NCBI RefSeq assembly: GCF_900143015.1
Contig: NZ_FSRT01000001.1
Location: 186,001 to 250,000, forward strand
Reading direction: 5' to 3'
DNA: 64,000 nucleotides
Source of the DNA: Fibrobacter sp. UWB11
GTDB taxonomy: Bacteria > Fibrobacterota > Fibrobacteria > Fibrobacterales > Fibrobacteraceae
This document shows, piece by piece, positions 47,848 to 63,494 of the stretch. Every line of letters begins with the position of its first letter. Position 1 is the stretch's first letter. The notes below the pieces were generated by a model that was not told the DNA's origin, ran no database searches, and saw only the letters and a list, made by a program, of their open reading frames with translations. A program made the position numbers and the translations under genes.

Positions 47848-47854
47848 GTATCAT
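47848..47854 (+). promoter_or_regulatory. Distal GTATCAT box of regulator 1
   Basis: The first GTATCAT, 119 bp before the regulator ATG and 70 bp before the proximal copy. It continues as AAAAATAC, so that GTAT and ATAC form a small inverted repeat. The same is seen upstream of regulator 2. Confidence 0.55.
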
Positions 47855-47917
47855 AAAAATACGATTTTTGTGAAATTTGCTAAAAATGGCGTTATTTTGC
47901 GTGTAAATGGCGCTAGA

Positions 47918-47959
47918 GTATCATGGCCTATTGTTTTTCGGAATGAATTAATATATATT
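47918..47959 (+). promoter_or_regulatory. Proximal GTATCAT box and promoter of regulator 1, leaderless
   Basis: GTATCAT (47918-47924), 6 bp, TTGTTT (47931-47936), 17 bp, TATATT (47954-47959), then 7 bp to the ATG at 47967. A start of transcription at the usual distance would fall on or next to the ATG, so the mRNA should be leaderless; there is no Shine-Dalgarno sequence. The box just upstream of the -35 is where an activator would sit. Confidence 0.65.
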
Positions 47960-47966
47960 TACGGCC

Positions 47967-48797
47967 ATGAAGCCGGTTACGGAATACGAAGATTATCGCG
48001 TTTATATGCAGGATTATTATACTGAGCGAAAAAGAGTCTCGTCTTTTTCGTGGCGTGAATTTACTCGTGCTTCGGGCTTCACTTCTCCGACTTATCTAAA
48101 ATTGGTGTGTGAATGTAAGACCCGCCTTTCGCCTCAAGGGGCCGAAAAGGTGGGGATGGCAATGGAACTGGCCGGTTTTGAACTTGAGTATTTCAAGTCG
48201 ATGGTCACTTATTGCCATGCCAAGACCGATCAGGAACGCAAGAGCGCTTATGAAACAATGCTAGAGCTTGCTTCGAACAACAAAGTAAAAGTTGTCGATG
48301 GCGATGCGTTCAAGTATTTTGAATCGTGGGTGCATCCGGTTGTGCGTGAACTTGCGCCGGTGATGTCTGGGGCAACTCCTGGCGATATCGCCAAGCGCTG
48401 TTGTCAAGTTGTTTCTGCTGCCGAAATTCGTGAATCGCTTGATTTTATGGTCCGGATTGGGCTTTTGAAAAAGAATGGCGATAACTATGTGCAGGCGGAC
48501 AAGCATTTGAAAGGTATGACTTCGGCCGTGTCTGTTGCTTTGCGCTATATGCACAGGGAAATGGCTCATTTCGCAGAAGAGGCAATTATCCGGTTTACGC
48601 CATCGGAACGAAACTTTACCGGGCTTACCATGGGAATTTCTGCAGAAGACTATAAAAAGATTTTGCAGGAACTCGATGTTTGCCGAAAGAAAGTCGCCCA
48701 AATTGCGCTGAACAGTCGTGGCACAGAAAGAGTTTATAGATTGAATTTACAGTTATTCCCATTGACGTGGAAAGAGGATAATTCCGATGTTAGGTAA
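47967..48797 (+). CDS. TIGR02147-family transcriptional regulator 1
   Basis: A 276-residue soluble protein of the Fibrobacter-expanded TIGR02147/DUF4423 group. An N-terminal helix-turn-helix-like section (about 25-75: SWREFTRASGFTSPTYLKLV) is followed by conserved helical blocks (YFESWVHPVVRELAPVM, ATPGDIAKRC, LDFMVRIGLLKKNG, ERNFTGLTMGIS) and a C-terminal RVYRLNLQLFPLTW. It is closely similar to the regulator at 51870. Family members are predicted regulators; the ligand is unknown. The last 11 bp overlap the start of the first lipoprotein gene, so the two are translationally coupled. Its leaderless promoter with GTATCAT boxes suggests autoregulation. Confidence 0.85.
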   Translation: MKPVTEYEDYRVYMQDYYTERKRVSSFSWREFTRASGFTSPTYLKLVCECKTRLSPQGAEKVGMAMELAGFELEYFKSMVTYCHAKTDQERKSAYETMLELASNNKVKVVDGDAFKYFESWVHPVVRELAPVMSGATPGDIAKRCCQVVSAAEIRESLDFMVRIGLLKKNGDNYVQADKHLKGMTSAVSVALRYMHREMAHFAEEAIIRFTPSERNFTGLTMGISAEDYKKILQELDVCRKKVAQIALNSRGTERVYRLNLQLFPLTWKEDNSDVR

Positions 48798-50139
48798 AAT
48801 TATTAATTTGTCTGCCTTTGCTCTTTTGCTAGGCGTCGTGGCGTGTGACAAAAAAACATCCGGAATTACCGAAGAAGGCAATTCTGTCACCGCGTATGAC
48901 TTGTGGAACGGCGCCGATGGTGCTGGCGGTTTTAAGTATGCTAACGTAGCTGCTCGCTGGTATAGCGTTGACGATGAAAACGATGGCGGAACGTCGTCAA
49001 TTGTATTCCCGACCATCGAGGGTAACAACCTTACGTCCGAAAATATGGAATCGCTGGTCTCGTATTGCGGCGGCCTCTGCGGAACGGTTGAACTGGGCGA
49101 ATCGTCTGCCCCGAGTGCTGGCGTGGGTATCGCACTTACAGAAAATGATTCTGCTATCGATATTTCTGAATGGGATGGCCTTTGCGTATCTTATGAATCT
49201 GCTCTGCAAATGAAGGGCGTGCTCGGCTACAAGGATGGCGGTACGCTGTCTGCAAACGATATGCCGACTGTTGAATTTGACAAGACCGAGAATGGGGCTT
49301 ATGCATCTCGTTGTGCAAAGTGGGCTGATTTCAAACAAAGTTCTTCGAACAATAATTCTGGTGTCGAAGCATCCAAGAAAGCAACGTCGCTTATTTTCAA
49401 GTTTGTCGGTAAAGCGAAGGAATCTGGGTTCTTCAATATCAAGGGAGTAAGCTCCTATAAGCATGGTGTTCAAAACTTGGATTCTATTGAATATGTAGAA
49501 CCCATGAAAGTAGATACGAGTGCTTGCTTGTGGAACGGAACCTTAGATAATCCGGGTTCTATGGTGATGAACGATTTGGATGGAACTCGTGGCGGACTTT
49601 GGTATTCCTACAATGACCGTAACGATGGCGGTGCGTCTCTGTTGTATTGGTCTGCAGAAGCCCCGAATTACAAGAACGCATTTGAATGGTTGGCGGATGA
49701 TGAACTCTTTAAAGGCGGGCTTTCGGCAAGTGTTTCTTTGGACAAAGGAAGCGCACCTCAAGCTTATGCCGGTATAGGTTTTAGAATGGCTGTTCGCGAT
49801 TCTGCAAATGCTGATTATTCTGCTAAGGCTACTGATATTAGCGGCTGGGGTGGAATTTGTGTGTACTACATGGCCGAAAAAGATATGCGCATGGTGCTTG
49901 CCTCTGATTCTCTTGAAAAAGATTATACTCTGGCGGCTTCTACGACTCCTGTTGAAAAATGCATCACTTGGGATGAAATGTCTACTGCAGGTTTAGAAAA
50001 ATCCGCTAGCGATATTAAGTTCGAAGTTCGTTCGAGTGAAAATGTATTTAATCAAATCCGGTTCAATATCATTGCTGTTGGAAAGTACAAAGAAGGCGGT
50101 GCGTGCATTGCCGATGAATCTAAAGTAAATCCCTTCTAG
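48787..50139 (+). CDS. Two-domain paralogous lipoprotein 1
   Basis: A 450-residue lipoprotein (lipobox VVAC, Cys20) with almost no linker. Domain 1 (about 35-225) and domain 2 (about 240-445) are copies of the family domain. Each carries the marks WYS or LWYSY, a GG(A/T)S strand, ISEWDGLCVSY or ISGWGGICVYY, and a closing FNI(I/K)xVG or GVSSY strand. Domain 1 has CGGLCGT. It starts inside the regulator gene with GAGGA 7 nt upstream. The protein is outward-facing and likely binds or senses extracellular carbohydrate, but this is inference from fold-like features. Confidence 0.82.
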   Translation: MLGKIINLSAFALLLGVVACDKKTSGITEEGNSVTAYDLWNGADGAGGFKYANVAARWYSVDDENDGGTSSIVFPTIEGNNLTSENMESLVSYCGGLCGTVELGESSAPSAGVGIALTENDSAIDISEWDGLCVSYESALQMKGVLGYKDGGTLSANDMPTVEFDKTENGAYASRCAKWADFKQSSSNNNSGVEASKKATSLIFKFVGKAKESGFFNIKGVSSYKHGVQNLDSIEYVEPMKVDTSACLWNGTLDNPGSMVMNDLDGTRGGLWYSYNDRNDGGASLLYWSAEAPNYKNAFEWLADDELFKGGLSASVSLDKGSAPQAYAGIGFRMAVRDSANADYSAKATDISGWGGICVYYMAEKDMRMVLASDSLEKDYTLAASTTPVEKCITWDEMSTAGLEKSASDIKFEVRSSENVFNQIRFNIIAVGKYKEGGACIADESKVNPF

Positions 50140-50146
50140 TAAGTTG

Positions 50147-50175
50147 TTGACTTCTTATTGTCTATAATTTATATT
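50147..50175 (+). promoter_or_regulatory. Internal promoter before lipoprotein 2
   Basis: TTGACT (50147-50152), a 17-bp spacer and TATATT (50170-50175) lie between the first two lipoprotein genes, 28 bp before the GTG start. Lipoprotein 2 may thus be expressed independently of the regulator transcript. No GTATCAT box is present here. Confidence 0.55.
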
Positions 50176-50203
50176 AAGCGGTAAAGTGTAGGAGGATACT
50201 TTC

Positions 50204-51697
50204 GTGTTCAGAAGGTTATTGAAGATTGCGGTGTTGCCCGCCGTATTGGGCATTTGTGCTTGTTCCGATGACAAAACAAGCGGAGTCTCTGTAGAAGATA
50301 ACGTCATTACTGCAGGTGATGTTTATTCTTCTAGCGAAATGCTTTCTAGTTCAAGCATAGAAAGTTCTAGCCATGGTGTGCAATCGTCTTCGGACCAAGA
50401 AGTTGTCGAAGTTTGTAAAAACGACCTCTGGGATGGTGCTGCTGGAATTACCAAGGTAAAAACGGAAAGTGAAATTACCGGGTACTGGTACACTTGGGGG
50501 GATGATGGGGGCGCATCAAGGATTGTGTTCCCTGTTGAAATGGGGAATAGCTATTCGGATGATGCTTTAGATGCCGTTGTTGAACATTGCGGAGGCTTTT
50601 GCGGAACGATTAAGTTTGATTATTCCGATTCTTCGCCTGCAGTCGGTATTGGATTTTTAGTTGCGGAAGAAGGCAAAAGTACCGATATTTCGTCATGGGG
50701 TGGTATTTGCGTGACATACTCATCCGATGTGAGTTTCTGGCTTGGCATTGCATCGGAATATAGTGATGCGTCGAATGTTTTTTCGATGGTGGGAATTCGG
50801 TTCCCTAGTGTAGTGTCGGGTGATACTTCTTTGTGTGCCCGCTGGGAAAACTTCTCTCGTAATTCGCCTGCTGTAGCTCCTGAAGATCGACGTGGTGACG
50901 TGGATGCGAAAAAGGCTAAAGCAATTCTCTTTAGATTTTTAGGTGATGGTTCAGAATCAAGAAATTTCAATATCAAGGCCGTGGGCACATACGACGGAGA
51001 TTTGCCACAGGTGGGCCTGCGGTCAGAAGATGTGCAAAACGGAGAAAATGAAGCGAATGAAGATTCGGCGACTTGCGTGTGGAAGGGCTCGGCACATTGG
51101 GAGTATGAATCTCAAAACGGCGCTGGAACTTGGTTTGTTTATGCTGATGACAATGCATCGAAGTTGTATTTTCCGATTGATAATGGGGTTAATTATTCTT
51201 TCTGGAAATATGATCCAACACTGGATTACTGTGGTGGCTTCTGCGGAACGATGGTGTTGGACCGTCAAGATGGCGGTGAATCGTTCGTAGGTATTGGCTT
51301 AGCCATTGCTGGGTATAATATGACTTCGGATGTCTGTGATAGTGATGTGTGTTTTTTTGATGGTATTAAAACGAAAGACATTGAAGATTGGGGCGGAATT
51401 TGTATAACGTATCAGTCGCAAAAAGATGCCTATTTAAAGTTGGGTATTGGCTCGGCCGATGAAGATTTGGAGTCTATGGATTTTCCAAATTTGCATCTCC
51501 CCAAATCGACGACAATAATCGAAAAATGTTATAAGTGGGATGAGTTTGACAAGTTGACTTCTGACCAATTAAAGAGTGTATCTGTGATTGCGTTTGAGGC
51601 TCGTAGCCAAACTCCACCGGAAAACGTAGAGTTCGGTGTGTATGCTGTTGGGAAATATTCTGCTCAGGGTGCATGTCGCCTAAAACCATACAATTAA
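50204..51697 (+). CDS. Two-domain paralogous lipoprotein 2
   Basis: A 497-residue lipoprotein starting at GTG, with AGGAGGA 7 nt upstream. The lipobox region is LGICAC, followed by a Ser-rich linker (about 40-70). Domain 1 (about 73-265) has GYWYTWGDDGGASRIVFPVEM, CGGFCGTIKF and ISSWGGICVTYSSD; domain 2 (about 285-495) has CGGFCGTMVLD, an insertion with two extra Cys (SDVCDSDVCFFDG) and IEDWGGICITYQSQKDAYL. The closing strand of each is FNIKAVGTY or FGVYAVGKY. It is the last gene of module 1. No terminator is obvious after it, but an AT-rich gap follows. Confidence 0.82.
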   Translation: MFRRLLKIAVLPAVLGICACSDDKTSGVSVEDNVITAGDVYSSSEMLSSSSIESSSHGVQSSSDQEVVEVCKNDLWDGAAGITKVKTESEITGYWYTWGDDGGASRIVFPVEMGNSYSDDALDAVVEHCGGFCGTIKFDYSDSSPAVGIGFLVAEEGKSTDISSWGGICVTYSSDVSFWLGIASEYSDASNVFSMVGIRFPSVVSGDTSLCARWENFSRNSPAVAPEDRRGDVDAKKAKAILFRFLGDGSESRNFNIKAVGTYDGDLPQVGLRSEDVQNGENEANEDSATCVWKGSAHWEYESQNGAGTWFVYADDNASKLYFPIDNGVNYSFWKYDPTLDYCGGFCGTMVLDRQDGGESFVGIGLAIAGYNMTSDVCDSDVCFFDGIKTKDIEDWGGICITYQSQKDAYLKLGIGSADEDLESMDFPNLHLPKSTTIIEKCYKWDEFDKLTSDQLKSVSVIAFEARSQTPPENVEFGVYAVGKYSAQGACRLKPYN

Positions 51698-51747
51698 GAA
51701 ATTTGCTCCATTCATACTACGAATGGGGCTTCTTTTTTGCTTTGATT

Positions 51748-51754
51748 GTATCAT
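51748..51754 (+). promoter_or_regulatory. Distal GTATCAT box of regulator 2
   Basis: GTATCAT 122 bp before the regulator ATG and 73 bp before the proximal copy. It continues as GAAAATAC, again placing GTAT and ATAC in an inverted arrangement. Confidence 0.55.
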
Positions 51755-51820
51755 GAAAATACATTGTATTTTTAAGATTTTAAATAAAAACTGCTTAAAT
51801 TGCTAAAAATTGAATAAAAA

Positions 51821-51862
51821 GTATCATGAAATATTGCGGTTTTTAAAATAGAAGTGTATATT
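51821..51862 (+). promoter_or_regulatory. Proximal GTATCAT box and promoter of regulator 2, leaderless
   Basis: GTATCAT (51821-51827), 6 bp, TTGCGG (51834-51839), 17 bp, TATATT (51857-51862), 7 bp, ATG 51870. The spacing is identical to regulator 1 at every step, although the bases between the elements have diverged. That supports a functional, conserved architecture. Confidence 0.65.
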
Positions 51863-51869
51863 TGTTATT

Positions 51870-52697
51870 ATGAAGCCGATTACGGAGTATCAGGATTATC
51901 GCTGCTACATGCAGGACTATTACGATGAACGGAAGCGTGTATCATCGTTTTCCTGGCGTGAATTTGCGCGTGCGGCCGGCTTTACATCGCCGACTTACCT
52001 GAAACTTGTCTGTGAAGGCAAAACGCGCCTTTCGTCTGTTGGGGCGGAAAAAGTCGGTGCCGCGATGCACTTGGCAGGTTACGAACTTGACTATTTCAAG
52101 TTGATGGTGGAATGTTGCCATGCCAAAACGGATGCGGACCGCAAAGTCATTTTTGAATCAATGCTGAAGATTGCGAAAGACAATGCTGTGAAAGTTGTCG
52201 ATGGCGATGCGTATAAGTATTTTGAAACTTGGATACATCCGGTGGTAAGAGAGCTTGCTCCGGTGATGCCAGGAGCGACTCCGGGTGAAATTGCGAGGCG
52301 TTGTTGTTTGGAGGCCTCAGCGGGGGAGGTCCGCGAGTCGCTCGATTTTATGGTAGATGCAGGCCTGTTAAAGAAAAACGGGGATGCCTATGAGCAGGTT
52401 GGTAGGCATCTGACTGGTTCTCCTAAAATTATGTCCGTGGCGATGCGTTCTTTGCATCACGAAATGATTCATTTTGCGGATGAGGCTCTTGAAAAATTTT
52501 CTGCGACGGAACGTAATTATTCTGGACTTACCATGGGAATTTCGGACGAGGATTACGAGAAAATTGTGCAAGAGATTAATGCTTGCCGCAAGCGTATTGC
52601 TCAAATTGCTTTGAACGGCCGTGGCGTCGGTCGTGTCTACAGGTTGAATTTACAGTTGTTCCCGCTGACGTGGGAGGAGGGAAAAAATCATGCTTAA
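51870..52697 (+). CDS. TIGR02147-family transcriptional regulator 2
   Basis: A 275-residue paralogue of the regulator at 47967, alike along its whole length (same PSTxYxxY-equivalent MKPxTEYxDYR start, HTH SWREFARAAGFTSPTYLKLV, GATPGEIARRCC, ERNYSGLTMGIS, RVYRLNLQLFPLTW end). The best-conserved parts are the HTH and the C-terminal block; the middle differs, which may mean different signals. It overlaps the next lipoprotein gene by 8 bp. It heads module 2. The regulator most likely controls the lipoproteins that follow it and possibly itself. Confidence 0.85.
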   Translation: MKPITEYQDYRCYMQDYYDERKRVSSFSWREFARAAGFTSPTYLKLVCEGKTRLSSVGAEKVGAAMHLAGYELDYFKLMVECCHAKTDADRKVIFESMLKIAKDNAVKVVDGDAYKYFETWIHPVVRELAPVMPGATPGEIARRCCLEASAGEVRESLDFMVDAGLLKKNGDAYEQVGRHLTGSPKIMSVAMRSLHHEMIHFADEALEKFSATERNYSGLTMGISDEDYEKIVQEINACRKRIAQIALNGRGVGRVYRLNLQLFPLTWEEGKNHA

Positions 52698-54987
52698 GAA
52701 ACTTCTTAACATATCGGCGTGCATTTCTGCATGCTCGTTTGTGTTTGGCATTGTGGCGTGTTCGGATGACAATACAGCGGGAGTCACGGAAGATGGCAAT
52801 CCGATTGCCTATGGTGAAAGTAGCTCGTCTGTTTATGGCGAAAGCAGTTCGTCTGTTGTGGGCAGCTCCTCTGCTATTGAAAGCTCTTCTGCCGTCCAGT
52901 CCTCTAGCAGTGTAGAGGCTGTTCCGAAGTTTGACTTGTGGAATGGTAAAACGGACAACAAGATCAATACGTATAACGAAAATACGGGGTATTGGTTCAG
53001 CTTTAGCGATGATTATTATTCTCGTATAACTTGGCCTGTGGAAATGGGTAATGAATATACTGCAGATTTCTTGGATCCTGTTTTTGAATATTGTGAAGGC
53101 GTGTGTGGTACAGTTGAGTTGCATGGCTCGGAGACGATGCCTTGGGCGGGTATTGGCTTTACGCTTGCCGAAGAAAATTCAACGGTGGATATCTCTGCAT
53201 GGGGCGGCATCTGTGTAACGTATGTCTCTGAATATCCGGTGAGTGTCTATCTCAATGTGAATGTTGGTGGTTTAGATACGATTGACGTTGTGTCTCCGTT
53301 TGTGGCCTATCCGGGCATTACGCTCCCGAAATCGGTGACGGATGCACCAACGCTTGTGAATATGCTTGGTTCTGATGCTGCTATTACGCGTTGTGCCAAA
53401 TGGAGCGACTTTATGGTGTCTAGCTGGGCGGTACACAATAGTTCGAAATTGAGCAAGATCTATTCTGGCGAAGAGGCTGTCAAAGAAATCAGGGCGATTA
53501 ACTTTGTATTTATTGGTAACTCCGATGGCAAGGGTGAATTCAATATCGTTGGTATCAGTACTTACGATGAAAATCTTCCGCAGTGGAATCACAATGGCGG
53601 CACGAATGCACAGGATGTAGGCCTGGTTACTACAAATGATGATTCCTTGACTTGCCTGTGGAAAGGCTTGGATGGATCTGGAATAGTAAATACGGGTTAT
53701 AATGACCGGGATGAATTTGTCGGAATGTTGTATGAATTCGATGCTTCTCCCGAGGGGGCGTATTCTAAAATAGAATTCCCCGCGTATAGGGAAATGGAGT
53801 ATGAACCCTATATGTATGAGCCGATTATCGTTGAATGTAAAGGCTTTTGTGGAACGATGGAGTTTACTTTAGAAAAAGCGGATTATGCCGCGTCTGCTGT
53901 AGCCTTCAATATTGCTGAAGATACATTGACATCTTGTGAAGGCAATACTTGCTATGGAGAAGCTAAATTTGCCGATATCAAGGATTGGGGCGGCATTTGC
54001 ATCACGTATTATTCCGAAAAGGATGCTTACTTAAATGTTGTTGTAAAAGGCGTTCCGTATGAAGAATCTCCGAAAGCATTTCTCCCTGCTACGGGGGCAC
54101 TTGTAGAAAAATGCTTTACCTGGAATGACCTTGCCCCGAATGATCCTAATATGGGGTCTGCGGTAAGTACGGTTCAGTTTATTGTGAAGAGTTATGAAAA
54201 CGGCGACAGAAACCAGTTTAATATAGCGGGGATCGGAAAGTATTCTGCTAATGGGGCTTGCTCTATTCCAAAAACCGCTTATGCGCCGATAAGTTCTTCG
54301 AGCCGAACCCCGCGCAGTTCCAGCAGTAGCAAGGTGTATAAAGATGAGTGCTCTTTCAAGAATCTTAGCCCAGTTTGGTATGGTCCGGATGGTTATTTGG
54401 GTGTAAAAACTGGGTATTCGACAGCGACAAGCGAAGGCGGCCATTGGTATGCATTCAAGGATAATGACGAAGTCAATATGACTTTTCCTGTACAAGTAAA
54501 TGGCGAGTTGGGTCAGGATTCGTTGCAACCTGTTCTAAACTACTGTCAAGGACTTTGTGTAACGCATAAAGGCGCAGGGAATGCTGGCTTCGGATTTAAC
54601 ATTGCTGATAAAGATGGAAATGGCAAGTTGCTGGCGAAAAGTCTCAAATATTGGGGCGGCATGTGTGTTGTTTATGCATCGGAATATGATTTGCATATTG
54701 CTATAAATGATGCAGAGCAAAATGATTTTGCAAACGTATCTAAATTGCCGGGCGTGACGTTGCCACAGACTGATGGTTATGCCAAGATTGAATGTAAATC
54801 CTGGAATGAATTTGTTGACAGCGAAACAAGGGCACCTATCGATCCTTCCAAGATATCGTCAATTTTATTCTATGATTATGCCAAGAATAATGCCAGTAGT
54901 TCGTTCAATATCTTGGAAATTGCCCCGTATCAAGAACTGGATGGTACATCCTATTTAAAATGCCAGGAACCTGCCTACTTGAAATAA
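52690..54987 (+). CDS. Three-domain paralogous lipoprotein 3
   Basis: A 765-residue lipoprotein, the longest of the set. Lipobox GIVAC (about Cys25), a Ser-rich linker (about 35-75), then three copies of the family domain (about 78-305, 315-525, 555-762), the last preceded by a second Ser/Arg linker (SSSRTPRSSSSS). Visible marks: GYWFSFSDD and CEGVCGTVEL; CKGFCGTMEF and IKDWGGICITYYSEKDAYL; CQGLCVTHK and LKYWGGMCVVYASEYDLH. The third copy lacks the CGT ending (CVT), so it is more divergent. GGAGG before the ATG, inside the end of the regulator gene, ensures coupling. Confidence 0.82.
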   Translation: MLKKLLNISACISACSFVFGIVACSDDNTAGVTEDGNPIAYGESSSSVYGESSSSVVGSSSAIESSSAVQSSSSVEAVPKFDLWNGKTDNKINTYNENTGYWFSFSDDYYSRITWPVEMGNEYTADFLDPVFEYCEGVCGTVELHGSETMPWAGIGFTLAEENSTVDISAWGGICVTYVSEYPVSVYLNVNVGGLDTIDVVSPFVAYPGITLPKSVTDAPTLVNMLGSDAAITRCAKWSDFMVSSWAVHNSSKLSKIYSGEEAVKEIRAINFVFIGNSDGKGEFNIVGISTYDENLPQWNHNGGTNAQDVGLVTTNDDSLTCLWKGLDGSGIVNTGYNDRDEFVGMLYEFDASPEGAYSKIEFPAYREMEYEPYMYEPIIVECKGFCGTMEFTLEKADYAASAVAFNIAEDTLTSCEGNTCYGEAKFADIKDWGGICITYYSEKDAYLNVVVKGVPYEESPKAFLPATGALVEKCFTWNDLAPNDPNMGSAVSTVQFIVKSYENGDRNQFNIAGIGKYSANGACSIPKTAYAPISSSSRTPRSSSSSKVYKDECSFKNLSPVWYGPDGYLGVKTGYSTATSEGGHWYAFKDNDEVNMTFPVQVNGELGQDSLQPVLNYCQGLCVTHKGAGNAGFGFNIADKDGNGKLLAKSLKYWGGMCVVYASEYDLHIAINDAEQNDFANVSKLPGVTLPQTDGYAKIECKSWNEFVDSETRAPIDPSKISSILFYDYAKNNASSSFNILEIAPYQELDGTSYLKCQEPAYLK

Positions 54988-55026
54988 TATATATTACTGG
55001 TTACAGATAAAATGAAGGATTGTTGT

Positions 55027-56613
55027 ATGTTTAGGAGAATTCTTGGAGGCGTGATTTCTGCCTTGTTGCTTGGCGTTATCGCCTGTTCAGATGACAATCC
55101 TTCGGTTCCATTTGTTGAACCTATCGCAGGTGAAAACAGCTCCTCTGCAGGAACGCTTTCTAGTGATGACCGCGTAATAGGATCATCCTCGAGTGACGGC
55201 GGCGTAATAGAATCTTCTTCAAACGGAGCGTTGTCTTCAAGTGGTGCGGTAAAGGCCCGCCGCTATAATTTGTGGGACCCAGCTGTAGACTACAAGGTCA
55301 ATACAGGAGACGATAGCACAGGCTTTTGGCGAACCTTTGGCGATGACTTGTTTGGCCAACAGGGTAAATCGAAGGTTGTTTTCCCTGTCGAACTTGAAAA
55401 TTCATCGATTCCTTTGGCTTCTGTTTTTAAACATTGCGATGGTCTATGCGGATCGGTTGAATTCGATACTTCAATGTTTAAACCTTGGGCGGGTTTTGAA
55501 ATCCAACTTGCCAGGGACGGCGCTACGGCGGATGTCTCGTCTTGGGATGGTATCTGTGTCACTTACGAATCTGATTATTGGATGTACGTCTATTTGAAGG
55601 TTAATATTGATGGAATTGATTCCAATAGCGAAATATTGCCGTTCGAAGCATATCCTGTGGGCATTCTAAATATAACGGCGAACGGAGGTTCTTTTGATCC
55701 AACACTTCGTGATTTGTATTGGATTAACGAGCCTAAAACTGTATGTGCAAAATGGAGCAATTTCGATATAACACATTGGAAATATTCCCAATATTCAATC
55801 AATCGCCAGGTATATACGGGAGAAGAGGCTGCAAAGGAAATCGTGTCGATCATGTTTAAGATTGATAGCCGTGGTGATGTTGATAAGAGAACTTTCAATA
55901 TTAGGGGAATCAGTACTTATAAACCGGACGAATCTTCGTATGATTGGGGGTTTCATAATGATGGCGTCAATGTAGAATTTCCTTATGATGATTCCTTGAC
56001 TTGCATGTGGAAAGGGGTTGACGGAACCCATGTGAAAACAGGCTATAATGATCGTAGCAGATACGCGGGATGGTTGGAACAATTTGATGAGTCTCCTGGT
56101 GACGCTTATGCTCATATTGAATATCCGGTGGAACTGTCGGGGGAGTTTGAATATGAAGTGTATGGAGGTCTTATTGAGACATGTCTCGGTTTTTGTGGAA
56201 CGATGGATTTTACCCTGAAAGGGGCCGAATACGCTATTGGCGGAGTCTCGTTTAATATTGCGGGCTTTAATGATGGCGATTACGTTTTTGAAGATATCCA
56301 AGACTGGGGCGGTGTTTGCGTCACTTACTATTCCGAAAAGGATGCTTACCTGAACTTTGTTGTAAAAGATGTTCCTTACGAGAACTCTCCTAAGGTCGCT
56401 TTGCCAAAGTCCAAAGGTCTTGTCGAAAAATGCTTTACCTGGAATGAAATTGCGCCGAATGATCCTGATATGGGGCGTGCGGTGGGTGCAATCCAGTTTG
56501 CTATAAAGGGTACTGTAGATTATGAAAAATGCAGATTTAATTTGGCGGGTATAGGGAAGTATTCCGTTAATGGCGCGTGCTCTTTTGAAACTCCAGCCAT
56601 TTCTGGAAACTAG
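55027..56613 (+). CDS. Two-domain paralogous lipoprotein 4
   Basis: A 528-residue lipoprotein (lipobox GVIAC) with a Ser/Gly linker (about 30-75) and two family domains (about 80-300 and 315-525). Domain 1 has CDGLCGSVEF and VSSWDGICVTYESD; domain 2 has CLGFCGTMDF and IQDWGGVCVTYYSEKDAYL, nearly the same as domain 2 of lipoprotein 3, which points to recent domain duplication. The start at 55027 (MFRRILGG) is preferred because AAGGA stands 7 nt before it; the in-frame ATG at 55012 has no site. It follows lipoprotein 3 by 39 bp. Confidence 0.8.
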   Translation: MFRRILGGVISALLLGVIACSDDNPSVPFVEPIAGENSSSAGTLSSDDRVIGSSSSDGGVIESSSNGALSSSGAVKARRYNLWDPAVDYKVNTGDDSTGFWRTFGDDLFGQQGKSKVVFPVELENSSIPLASVFKHCDGLCGSVEFDTSMFKPWAGFEIQLARDGATADVSSWDGICVTYESDYWMYVYLKVNIDGIDSNSEILPFEAYPVGILNITANGGSFDPTLRDLYWINEPKTVCAKWSNFDITHWKYSQYSINRQVYTGEEAAKEIVSIMFKIDSRGDVDKRTFNIRGISTYKPDESSYDWGFHNDGVNVEFPYDDSLTCMWKGVDGTHVKTGYNDRSRYAGWLEQFDESPGDAYAHIEYPVELSGEFEYEVYGGLIETCLGFCGTMDFTLKGAEYAIGGVSFNIAGFNDGDYVFEDIQDWGGVCVTYYSEKDAYLNFVVKDVPYENSPKVALPKSKGLVEKCFTWNEIAPNDPDMGRAVGAIQFAIKGTVDYEKCRFNLAGIGKYSVNGACSFETPAISGN

Positions 56614-56644
56614 AATTTATAATTAAAAAATAAAGGAGTGCGTT

Positions 56645-58249
56645 ATGTTTAGGAGAATTTCTGGTATTGCGGCAAGTGCCTTGTTGCTAGGCTTTGTCGC
56701 CTGTTCAGATGACAATCCATCGGGTGGCTTTGATGTTCCCGCTTACGGCGATAGCAGTTCGTCAGTGGAACCTGCTCCCCAAAGTAGTGACGATGTTGGC
56801 GGGAGTGCTGCGAATGTCGCATCGAGCAGTAGTCAAAATGTTGCAGAGTCATCAAGTAGCGTGATTGCGAATTCTTCAAGTAGCGCAAAAACGCCGAAGA
56901 ATACGGCTGCTTGTTTGTGGAATGCTAGCAAAGGTGACTATTTGGTGAATACGGGATTTGATCCTGATAGTACACGTGGTGCTGGACTTTGGTATAATAT
57001 TAGCGATGATCCTGATGGCGGTGTTACTGAGGTTTATAGCCCGGATGTGTGCGGTTTTGAAGCTCCCGAGTATGAATGTGCGGAAGCGCTTGTAGAATAT
57101 TGTGGTAGTTATTGCGCTGAATATCGTTTTAGAAAAGGAACCTCTGCTGAAATTTTTGGGGGAATGGGATTCAATGTTGCGGGCGTTGAAGATCCCCATG
57201 CCTCGCACGCCCTAAGGTATGGTGACATCAGCGATTGGGGGGGCATCTGTGTGACGTACGCTGCGGATAGGGATGTGCTCTTGAGGCTTTATACAGACGA
57301 TACCTTTTATCAGGCTGAATTTGGCAAATCAACTGAATTTGTAGAAAAATGCGTTACATGGGATGCTTTGAATGCGGCCGAGGCTTCAAAACATGTGTCT
57401 AGCATTCGTTTCATTATGCCGGGTACCGATGGAACAAAGGGACACCTCTCTATTGCCGCTGTCGGTAAATACGATGCGAATGGAGCTTGCGATGTCGATG
57501 GCTATGCCTATGTTTTGCCAAAGAGTAGTGTTGACGAAGGGATTATTGTATTGCGCAGTTCAAGTTCTAAACAAAGTAGTTCTGAACAAAGTTCTTCTAG
57601 CGGTATCACTGGGCCTTGTACGACTCCTGAGAGTGTCAGTGATTTATGGTATGGTCCGAGAAACGCCCGTAATGGTAACGACTTTGTAAATACTGGGCTC
57701 GATAACGGTTCTGAAACATCCGGATATTGGTTCAGTTTCAGTGATGAAAAGGGCGATGCATTTGTCTCGTGGCCCGTAATGCAATATGAATATGAAAATG
57801 TAATGAATTTGCTTATAGAAGTATGTGAGGGTATTTGCGGGACGTTCAAGTATAGAAGTGAGGGCGTTGTGGGTATCGGTTTTAATGTTGCCGGGGAAGC
57901 TTTGTCTGGAAAAAATGGAGCCCCGGACATAGCCGATGTTTCTGCTTGGGGCGGTTTGTGTGTGACTTATACCTCGGAATCGGACATGGATGTGGTAATG
58001 TCTAACGATACGGCATTTACCTATATCGAGAAAATTGCGTTATTGCCTAAGGTTACGTTGCCCAAGAGTGTTGAGGTCAAGACAGTGTGCTCGAAGTGGA
58101 GTGATTTTGTCTCCTATGCAGAAACCCCTAGTGACCCGACTCATGTCGCGTCGATTTTATTTGTAGTCTACGGAAATGCGGGCTCTGAGAGCAAGTTCAA
58201 TGTGATTGGCATTGGTAAGTATGCCGATGTGCAAAACATCTGCAAATAG
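56645..58249 (+). CDS. Two-domain paralogous lipoprotein 5
   Basis: A 534-residue lipoprotein (lipobox GFVAC) with a long Ser-rich linker (about 30-80) and two family domains (about 85-285 and 320-533), separated by a second Ser/Gln linker. Marks seen: CGSYCAEYRF (the CGT is not kept), ISDWGGICVTYAADRDVLL, then CEGICGTFKY, VSAWGGLCVTYTSESDMDV and FNVIGIGKY. AAAGGAGT lies 8 nt before the ATG. It is the last gene of module 2. Confidence 0.8.
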   Translation: MFRRISGIAASALLLGFVACSDDNPSGGFDVPAYGDSSSSVEPAPQSSDDVGGSAANVASSSSQNVAESSSSVIANSSSSAKTPKNTAACLWNASKGDYLVNTGFDPDSTRGAGLWYNISDDPDGGVTEVYSPDVCGFEAPEYECAEALVEYCGSYCAEYRFRKGTSAEIFGGMGFNVAGVEDPHASHALRYGDISDWGGICVTYAADRDVLLRLYTDDTFYQAEFGKSTEFVEKCVTWDALNAAEASKHVSSIRFIMPGTDGTKGHLSIAAVGKYDANGACDVDGYAYVLPKSSVDEGIIVLRSSSSKQSSSEQSSSSGITGPCTTPESVSDLWYGPRNARNGNDFVNTGLDNGSETSGYWFSFSDEKGDAFVSWPVMQYEYENVMNLLIEVCEGICGTFKYRSEGVVGIGFNVAGEALSGKNGAPDIADVSAWGGLCVTYTSESDMDVVMSNDTAFTYIEKIALLPKVTLPKSVEVKTVCSKWSDFVSYAETPSDPTHVASILFVVYGNAGSESKFNVIGIGKYADVQNICK

Positions 58250-62327: not shown

Positions 62328-62633
62328 TTCTCACTCCAGGTTGGGCTTTTTCGCGCGCAAATATAGAAAATTACTTTTTTGCGCGGTAGGCTGCAATTTC
62401 TGCTTCAATCTCCGTTTCGCTCATGTTTGCTGTGCCGTTTTTTAGCAGCGTCTGCTTGCAATGCTCGAAGAATGTCTAATCCCATTTTTTTTGAAAAGCT
62501 CGTGAAATGTTTGACTCTTATCAAAATTTGGATGATGCTATTTGGAAATGGATTATGTTTCTGGTATTGTAAACGATAATGTACCGGGGATTTATTTTAT
62601 TTATATTTGTTGCGCTTAGTTGGAGTGAATTTT
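62328..62633. other. Intergenic region before the FISUMP genes
   Basis: About 300 bp. It contains the tail of a decayed antitoxin-like gene on the minus strand (62371-62424) and an AT-rich leader. The last 35 bp (ATTTAT...TTAGTTGGAGTGAATTTT) closely match the leader of the second FISUMP gene at 63550-63584, so promoter and ribosome site were duplicated together with the gene. Confidence 0.5.
62371..62424 (-). pseudogene. Remnant of an antitoxin-like C-terminus
   Basis: Seventeen codons, MSETEIEAEIAAYRAKK and a stop, with an open frame extending upstream to about 62473 (FEHCKQTLLKNGTAN). The acidic EIxAEIxxYRxxK ending is common at the C-termini of type II antitoxins and similar small proteins, but no full gene or toxin is present. 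Too short to be sure. Confidence 0.3.
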
Positions 62634-63494
62634 ATGACTTTGAAAAAATTTTTGATGGCTGGTTTTGTGGTTGCGGTGCTGGTGGCTTGCGGCGATGACG
62701 GCAGCAGCAATTCCGTAACTGATTCCGATGAGGATTCTTCTTCGTCTGTTTGCGTGGATTGCGACGGTTCGAGCAGTTCGTTGGTCGGAAGAACATCGTG
62801 CAATGTGAACATTGATGAAAATTGTATGAAAGACTCCCGCGATGGCCAGACCTACAAGACTGTTAAAATCGGTACCCAGATCTGGATGGCAGAAAACCTC
62901 AACTATGCTTATACGGATGTACCCTATAACATTACCATTAATGGACGCTACTACACCTCCGATTCCATTAGTTGGTGTTTTGATGACGATGCGTCCAACT
63001 GCGCCAAGTACGGCCGCCTATACACCTGGGCCGCCGTGATGGATAGCGTGGGGGCATGGACTATGAACGGCAAGGGCTGTGGCGATGATAAGACTTGCTC
63101 ACCGACGTACCCTGTGCGTGGTATTTGTCCCGAGGGCTGGCACCTGCCTACGAAGGTTGAATTTGAAGCCCTTTTCATTGCGGTTGGCGGTACACAAGAA
63201 GCTGAGAAAGAATGGCTTTGGAACGATGTGGGCAAGATGCTCAAGTCTACTAGCGGCTGGTATAACAGCCGCAACGGAACGGACGCCTACGCCTTCTCGG
63301 CGTTGCCTGCTGGCAGCAGGAGCCATCGAGGTTTGTTCGACGACTTTGGCTACTATGCGAGCTTCTGGAGTTCTACTGAGTTCGATAGCGAATGCGTGTA
63401 CCTCATGGACTTGTACTACTACGACGACTTTGCGAACCTGCATGCCATCAATAAGGACTACGCGTATTCAGTTCGTTGCGTTAAGGACGAATAA
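62634..63494 (+). CDS. FISUMP-domain lipoprotein
   Basis: A 286-residue lipoprotein (lipobox VLVAC, Cys19) with a short Ser/Asp linker and a FISUMP (Fibrobacter succinogenes major paralogous, TIGR02145) domain. Marks in order: DGQTYKTVKIGTQIWMAENLNY, CAKYGRLYTWAAVMD, GICPEGWHLPTKVEFEAL, FSALPAGSRSHRGLF, FWSSTEFDSECVYLM and a final YSVRCVKD. This large family is surface exposed and of unknown function. The start ATG has TTGGAGTG 8 nt upstream; the GTG-type extension to 62607 is less likely. A tandem paralogue follows after about 90 bp. Confidence 0.9.
   Translation: MTLKKFLMAGFVVAVLVACGDDGSSNSVTDSDEDSSSSVCVDCDGSSSSLVGRTSCNVNIDENCMKDSRDGQTYKTVKIGTQIWMAENLNYAYTDVPYNITINGRYYTSDSISWCFDDDASNCAKYGRLYTWAAVMDSVGAWTMNGKGCGDDKTCSPTYPVRGICPEGWHLPTKVEFEALFIAVGGTQEAEKEWLWNDVGKMLKSTSGWYNSRNGTDAYAFSALPAGSRSHRGLFDDFGYYASFWSSTEFDSECVYLMDLYYYDDFANLHAINKDYAYSVRCVKDE

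Follow-up and report, generated by a model that had tools for sequence, protein, structure and literature searches.

Putative private operator pairs of conserved geometry upstream of TIGR02147 regulator genes in Fibrobacter

Many regulator genes of the TIGR02147 family in Fibrobacter are preceded by two copies of a short box about 70 bp apart, the sequence of which differs among paralogs, and each such regulator quite probably recognises its own private operator pair. This self-recognition is inferred from sequence alone, namely from statistics on the geometry, the private boxes, the covariation of helix and box, the asymmetry of the inverted repeats, and the phasing of the A-tracts, with no binding, expression, or transcript data. 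The starting point was a pair of loci in the window, i.e., the whole 64,000-nucleotide stretch of Fibrobacter sp. UWB11 DNA that was analysed (positions 186,001–250,000 of contig NZ_FSRT01000001.1), followed by a sample of about 250 TIGR02147 family genes from Fibrobacter genomes. The family is present in all 61 Fibrobacteria-class genomes sampled, with up to dozens of copies. The literature that we searched mentions DUF4423 but not TIGR02147, describes no operator or mechanism for TIGR02147 (Fsuc_second)/DUF4423 proteins, and, where Fibrobacter promoters and regulons were searched for, contains no prior description of the operator system; the pattern thus offers a lead on mechanism for this family. 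It also provides a natural experiment in how paralogous regulators diverge without cross-talk, in a rumen bacterium with dozens of sister regulators for surface proteins, most of those examined having a putative two-site switch with its own box.

The two regulators of the window are 69% identical in coding DNA and 70% in protein, and 72 of 123 aligned columns are identical between their upstream regions. The first-pass annotation had described identical operator-promoter geometry before both genes, and the series GTATCAT, 6 bp, -35, 17 bp, TATATT, 7 bp, and ATG was found exactly as given at each of them (Table 1); the identity holds from the proximal box to the ATG but not for the distal copy, which is offset by 70 bp at one gene and 73 bp at the other. 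At both genes the distal inverted repeat is without its left arm, and a partial dyad, GTATCAT(A/G)AAAATAC, is kept instead. The similarity of the two modules, in protein identity and in alignable flanking DNA, would also be expected if they were simply tandem duplicates and the GTATCAT pairs functionless leftovers of a copied promoter. However, the same geometry with different, internally matching boxes stands before many distant paralogs in many genomes, and in a decaying remnant the two copies would not stay matched to one another and to the helix of the regulator, which makes descent alone extremely improbable. An additional GTATCAT at 51939, inside gene 2, looks incidental.

Table 1 Features of the two TIGR02147 loci in window coordinates
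Feature	Position	Strand	Remark
Distal box GTATCAT, gene 1	47848-47854	+	offset 70 from proximal copy
Partial dyad GTATCATAAAAATAC, extension of gene 1 distal box	47848-47862	+	left arm absent
Curved spacer with phased A/T tracts, gene 1	47855-47917	+	computed curvature
Proximal half-site GTATCAT, gene 1	47918-47924	+	6 bp upstream of -35
-35 TTGTTT, gene 1	47931-47936	+	family consensus TATTG
-10 TATATT, gene 1	47954-47959	+	7 bp to ATG 47967
Regulator 1, TIGR02147/DUF4423, 276 aa	47967-48797	+	profile matches
Predicted recognition helix, regulator 1, residues 41-48 PTYLKLVC	48087-48110	+	alignment transfer from regulator 2 model
Lipoprotein gene, 11 bp overlap with regulator 1, putative operon	48787-50139	+	lipobox by sequence
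Second lipoprotein gene behind regulator 1, GTG start	50204-51697	+	
Distal box GTATCAT, gene 2	51748-51754	+	offset 73 from proximal copy
Partial dyad GTATCATGAAAATAC, extension of gene 2 distal box	51748-51762	+	left arm absent
Curved spacer with phased A/T tracts, gene 2	51755-51820	+	computed curvature
Proximal half-site GTATCAT, gene 2	51821-51827	+	6 bp upstream of -35
-35 TTGCGG, gene 2	51834-51839	+	
-10 TATATT, gene 2	51857-51862	+	7 bp to ATG 51870
Regulator 2, TIGR02147/DUF4423, 275 aa	51870-52697	+	profile matches
Predicted recognition helix, regulator 2, residues 41-48 PTYLKLVC	51990-52013	+	structure model, covariation
Lipoprotein gene, 8 bp overlap with regulator 2	52690-54987	+	
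Further lipoprotein-like gene	55012-56613	+	
Further lipoprotein-like gene	56645-58249	+	

Taken singly, GTATCAT shows no enrichment in the window (8 copies vs 5.8 expected), and the 3.76-Mb genome contains 295 copies in all. Exact pairs with a gap of 56–75 number three in the genome, compared to about 0.2 expected from the single-box count, and all three lie directly before TIGR02147 genes, of which this genome has 39. Across 80 genomes of the genus, 144 GTATCAT pairs were counted vs 14 for a backwards control pattern. Among 67 fetched pairs (offset 67–75), 54 have a family gene within 220 bp downstream, and two more show the start of one (L170, masked; L295, at a contig end). The enrichment before other TIGR02147 genes, the absence of which would have refuted the first-pass reading, is therefore strong at this spacing. 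The pair of gene 1 is weak when taken alone (its score was reached by 14 of 60 shuffles in a single-locus test), and for this reason family-wide tests were used. One locus (L310, pairs at 100 and 362) carries two complete GTATCAT pairs in tandem, 262 bp apart, before one regulator gene. Short tandem GTATCAT arrays were also seen at G017:C24:29583-29685 and G005:C22:5982-6054 (e.g., GTATCATTTTTTGTATTTATG), apparently unrelated to promoters.

GTATCAT was rejected as a family-wide box, since other paralogs carry other boxes, including GTACTAT, GTATAAT, GTTGCAT, GTAGCAT, GTTTCAT, and GTATTCC. The promoter-side box instead recurs 70–74 bp upstream within the same gene and not in the promoters of other genes. 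Allowing at most one mismatch, we searched 114 non-redundant upstream regions for self-matches of the promoter-side 9-mer, using as control the proximal region of one gene paired with the distal region of another; the 9-mer recurred at 70–74 bp in 43 cases vs 8.8 in the control, with a second peak at 91–92 (13 vs 3.2). In a replication set of 63 other regions from named Fibrobacter genomes, fetched regardless of their boxes, 48 matched at 70–73 vs 14.6 in the control, which is probably higher here owing to the many closely related genes in this set that have a box in common. Generic self-similarity of AT-rich DNA was rejected as an explanation, given that the cross-locus control is flat and the offsets peak at 70–74. 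The distance between distal and proximal boxes is sometimes about 60 (about one helical turn less) or 91–92 (two turns more). The two sites are not alike: the distal box forms the right arm of an inverted repeat (arm match of at least 6/7, gap usually 4–5 bp) in 47 of 86 promoters, whereas no proximal box among the 86 has such an arm (0.5% in shuffled sequences). Judged from sequence, the feature common to these family members is the geometry, not the box.

The pair was found under a strict rule in 113 of 246 sampled family genes, about half being without it, and several subfamilies, including ones with other leaders, seem to lack it. Even gene 1 of the window scores too low for the strict rule, as only a short stretch matches. 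Counting from the ATG alone missed genes with long leaders, and a promoter-anchored search was therefore made, which added 16 pairs, some of them weak. The box finder presupposes a GT start and a set of allowed offsets, so that some boxes may be mis-set. The long-leader subfamily of this genome (L011, L012, L013, L015, L018, and L022), mostly with an AGGAGG-like ribosome site, has its promoter about 60–145 bp upstream, with pairs there in some members (GTGTTGT, TTGTGAA). A distant subfamily with an SSGLYLDL helix (L002, L046, L054–L057, and L063) has GTGTTCCC boxes 73–74 bp apart at -36 to -41, and the operator layout may thus be older than the main expansion.

Both window regulators match the TIGR02147 profile (286 and 285 bits vs a cut-off of 50; profile positions 1–270 of 272) and DUF4423 (98–99 vs a cut-off of 30; residues 104–266), and the closest named relatives of regulator 2 are from Fibrobacter (up to 96% identical). 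A Pfam scan of the regulator returned DUF4423 only, with no helix-turn-helix profile match; a PDB sequence search with the regulator alignment gave nothing significant, and nothing was found in PHROGs. In an AlphaFold model of regulator 2 (mean pLDDT 85), helices 29–36 and 41–48 are placed as a helix-turn-helix, the second of these being the predicted recognition helix. Residues of about 7–90 of the model align to HigA, DdrO, P22 c2, and 434 Cro at Z 6.8–8.9, weak evidence at this middling level because the fold is mostly helical; MarR matches in the Foldseek list were left out on account of their large rmsd. DNA binding by these proteins has only indirect support, from the predicted helix-turn-helix, the XRE-like fold, and the covariation between helix and box.

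This covariation is visible when helices are grouped by box. SPTYLKLV and SPSYLKLV go with GTATCAT, SPSYLKM/D/T with GTACTAT or GTACTGT, SPNYIQLV with GTATAAT/GTATTAT, SSSYMKVV mostly with GTTGCAT, SPSYMKVV with GTAGCAT, SSGFLKLV with GTTTCAT, and SAVYLKYV mostly with GTATTCC-like boxes. Scanning all 275 regulator positions, we found that the one following box base 3 most closely is residue 41 (MI/H 0.52, next 0.22) and the one following box base 4 is residue 46 (MI/H 0.46, next 0.20), while in the same scan no helix residue clearly explained base 5. The best six-residue window for covariation with the box is residues 41–46, and the partial Mantel correlation between helix and box, with overall similarity removed, is 0.49 vs a null maximum of 0.19. 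The residue ranking is the key evidence, because common ancestry should raise every column alike. The geometry stays constant while residues 41/46 and bases 3/4 change together, even between near-sisters (L097 with M46 and GTACTAT vs L211 with L46 and GTATCAT; L151 with P41 and GTATCAT vs L233 with S41 and GTTTCAT). A tree-based independent-pairs test yielded only three pairs on well-supported branches, none of them contrary, too few for significance. The two window genes share GTATCAT because of their common recognition helix, SPTYLKLVCE. The proposal that GTATCAT is the binding box of the regulators is accordingly supported by covariation, without binding data, for the window pair and not for the family. 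One locus (L073, G002:C8:96916-98122) has GTATCAT in both distal arms and a GTATCAT-type helix with a GTACTAT proximal half-site, and is possibly caught between two boxes.

Similar correlations between residues and bases reveal specificity residues in the GntR, MerR, LacI, and IclR families (PMC4494728, PMC5045206, PMC4052901, PMC8222616). Those families are spread over many species and pathways, whereas the diversity of TIGR02147 lies within a lineage-specific paralogous expansion inside single genomes with a fixed operator geometry.

Alternatively, the boxes might be recognised not by the TIGR02147 products but by a global regulator, or a small number of them, the TIGR02147 proteins being merely part of the regulated operons. 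Such a promoter is indeed used without an adjoining regulator gene: at L160, L282, L285, and L306 (pairs at locus position 1500 or 100), a GTATCAT pair with the same promoter precedes lipoprotein genes without a neighbouring TIGR02147 gene. With a global reader, however, the box would not differ from paralog to paralog, and of all columns of the adjoining regulator it is residues 41 and 46 that bases 3 and 4 follow most closely, so we give this explanation very little credence. If the TIGR02147 products read the boxes themselves, the four orphan pairs mean that some outputs seem to be controlled in trans.

In 69 promoters, a few bases separate the end of the proximal box from a TATTG -35, with TATATT about 17 bp further on and 7–8 bp before the ATG. 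In 13 others (the -38 class), the box lies one turn closer, at the position of the -35, and no TTGAC remains. Since the -10 is so close to the ATG, the regulator mRNA is predicted, by inference, to be leaderless. We infer activation somewhat more readily than repression, because of where the proximal site lies, because one class is without a -35, and because the -35s of the window promoters are weak. With the same anatomy, a regulator could also repress, looping the promoter shut or masking it until the regulator is released on a signal that the DUF4423 domain senses, and this reading retains considerable weight, even if it is the less probable one. The box of the -38 class overlaps the -35 region, good cores occur in part of the -50 class (L010, for instance, has TTGACA ... 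TATATA), and Rco of plasmid pLS20 represses with a 75-bp loop (PMC4207663). On the other hand, the larger class has its proximal box upstream of the -35 and not over it, and the -38 class, without a recognisable -35, suits an activator-dependent promoter, as do the weak window -35s.

Between the boxes, AAAA tracts follow one another at 10-bp steps, with peaks near -5, -15, -26, -35, -45, and -56 from the proximal box, and alternate with TTTT tracts. The computed curvature of the spacer exceeds that of shuffled sequences (mean z -2.9, n=86), and in the segment from -115 to -52 relative to the ATG it reaches z -4.6 for gene 1 and -3.8 for gene 2. Among 22 upstream segments, the two window regulator promoters have the strongest curvature (lowest end-to-end ratio) and the lowest z, the others averaging near -0.4. 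A-tracts directly upstream of a -35 can act as UP elements, and the phased tracts may accordingly be an element bound by the alpha subunit of the polymerase, with the boxes merely flanking it and no protein loop. We consider this possible but unlikely, as the tracts run for six helical turns, about 50–115 bp upstream of the predicted start, and end at the distal box, and the offsets shift by about whole turns (60, 70–74, 91–92). The phased spacer and the whole-turn steps rather favour an oligomer with a short protein-bridged loop, an inference that we hold only slightly better than even. The suggestion that two boxes might allow looping thus gains from the phased A-tracts, the loop itself not having been demonstrated.

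Combining these inferences, we propose that every such TIGR02147 gene has upstream of it an operator pair recognised by the protein that the gene encodes, with a distal site that in about half of the cases is a clear inverted repeat of the box and a proximal site that is a single half-site abutting the -35, or replacing it in one subclass. The regulator, an XRE-like helix-turn-helix joined to DUF4423, would bridge both sites along the intrinsically curved spacer and most likely touch RNA polymerase from the proximal site, switching on its own leaderless message together with the lipoprotein genes behind it, and when abundant it may dampen its own expression. Box bases 3 and 4 would be set by recognition-helix residues 41 and 46; paralogs with different helices would thus have private operators, and those with the same helix, such as the two window paralogs, should cross-regulate. 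The arrangement resembles a natural recognition code by which sister switches are kept apart. In its widest form, the proposal is of a bank of 20–40 self-activating and largely insulated switches in each genome, all with one looped and curved type of operator and keyed by a two-residue/two-base code. Surface lipoproteins would thereby be turned on independently, perhaps bistably, and the code would be simple enough for trans targets to be predicted from the sequence; this remains tentative, and we would not expect all of it to hold.

Self-regulation is common among XRE/lambda-repressor-like autoregulators. The N-terminal fold of the model resembles this group (HigA, DdrO, P22 c2, and the C proteins of restriction-modification systems) at a middling Z of 6–9, but the match concerns the fold only. 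The N-terminus of TIGR02147 proteins is fused to DUF4423 and their sites lie about 70 bp apart; no toxin, restriction, or phage genes were seen beside the window genes. Rco is a helix-turn-helix regulator with two operators 75 bp apart, a statically bent spacer, and a tetramer loop, and it both activates and represses its own promoter (PMC4207663). TIGR02147 loci with the pair likewise have two putative operators of the same motif about 70–75 bp apart, with a spacer that is intrinsically bent by computed curvature only. In contrast, Rco is a single switch on a plasmid and has its one motif in several copies, whereas TIGR02147 comprises dozens of paralogs per genome with different boxes. Rco also acts on divergent overlapping promoters in a conjugation module, while a divergent promoter is not part of the TIGR02147 pattern: the window loci have no divergent gene, their upstream genes lying on the same strand, and no conjugation genes occur among the window neighbours examined. 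The likeness is one of how the two may work, and membership is not claimed.

The genes behind the regulators are likely their outputs, and their operon with the regulator is inferred. The next gene overlaps the regulator by a median of 8 bp, and under a crude rule it has a lipobox in 102 of 137 family genes with enough downstream sequence. The five lipoprotein-like genes of the window (48787-58249) include four that are 30–35% identical to the first. Three of the five were scanned and had no Pfam match, and a lipoprotein structure prediction (pLDDT 63) was too poor for a structure search. Further along the window, the ORF at 62607-63494 (GQTYKTVKIGTQIWMAENLNYA) has a sequence that looks like the Fibrobacter major paralogous domain. 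At one further locus (L290), a GTATCAT pair precedes an ORF for a secreted protein.
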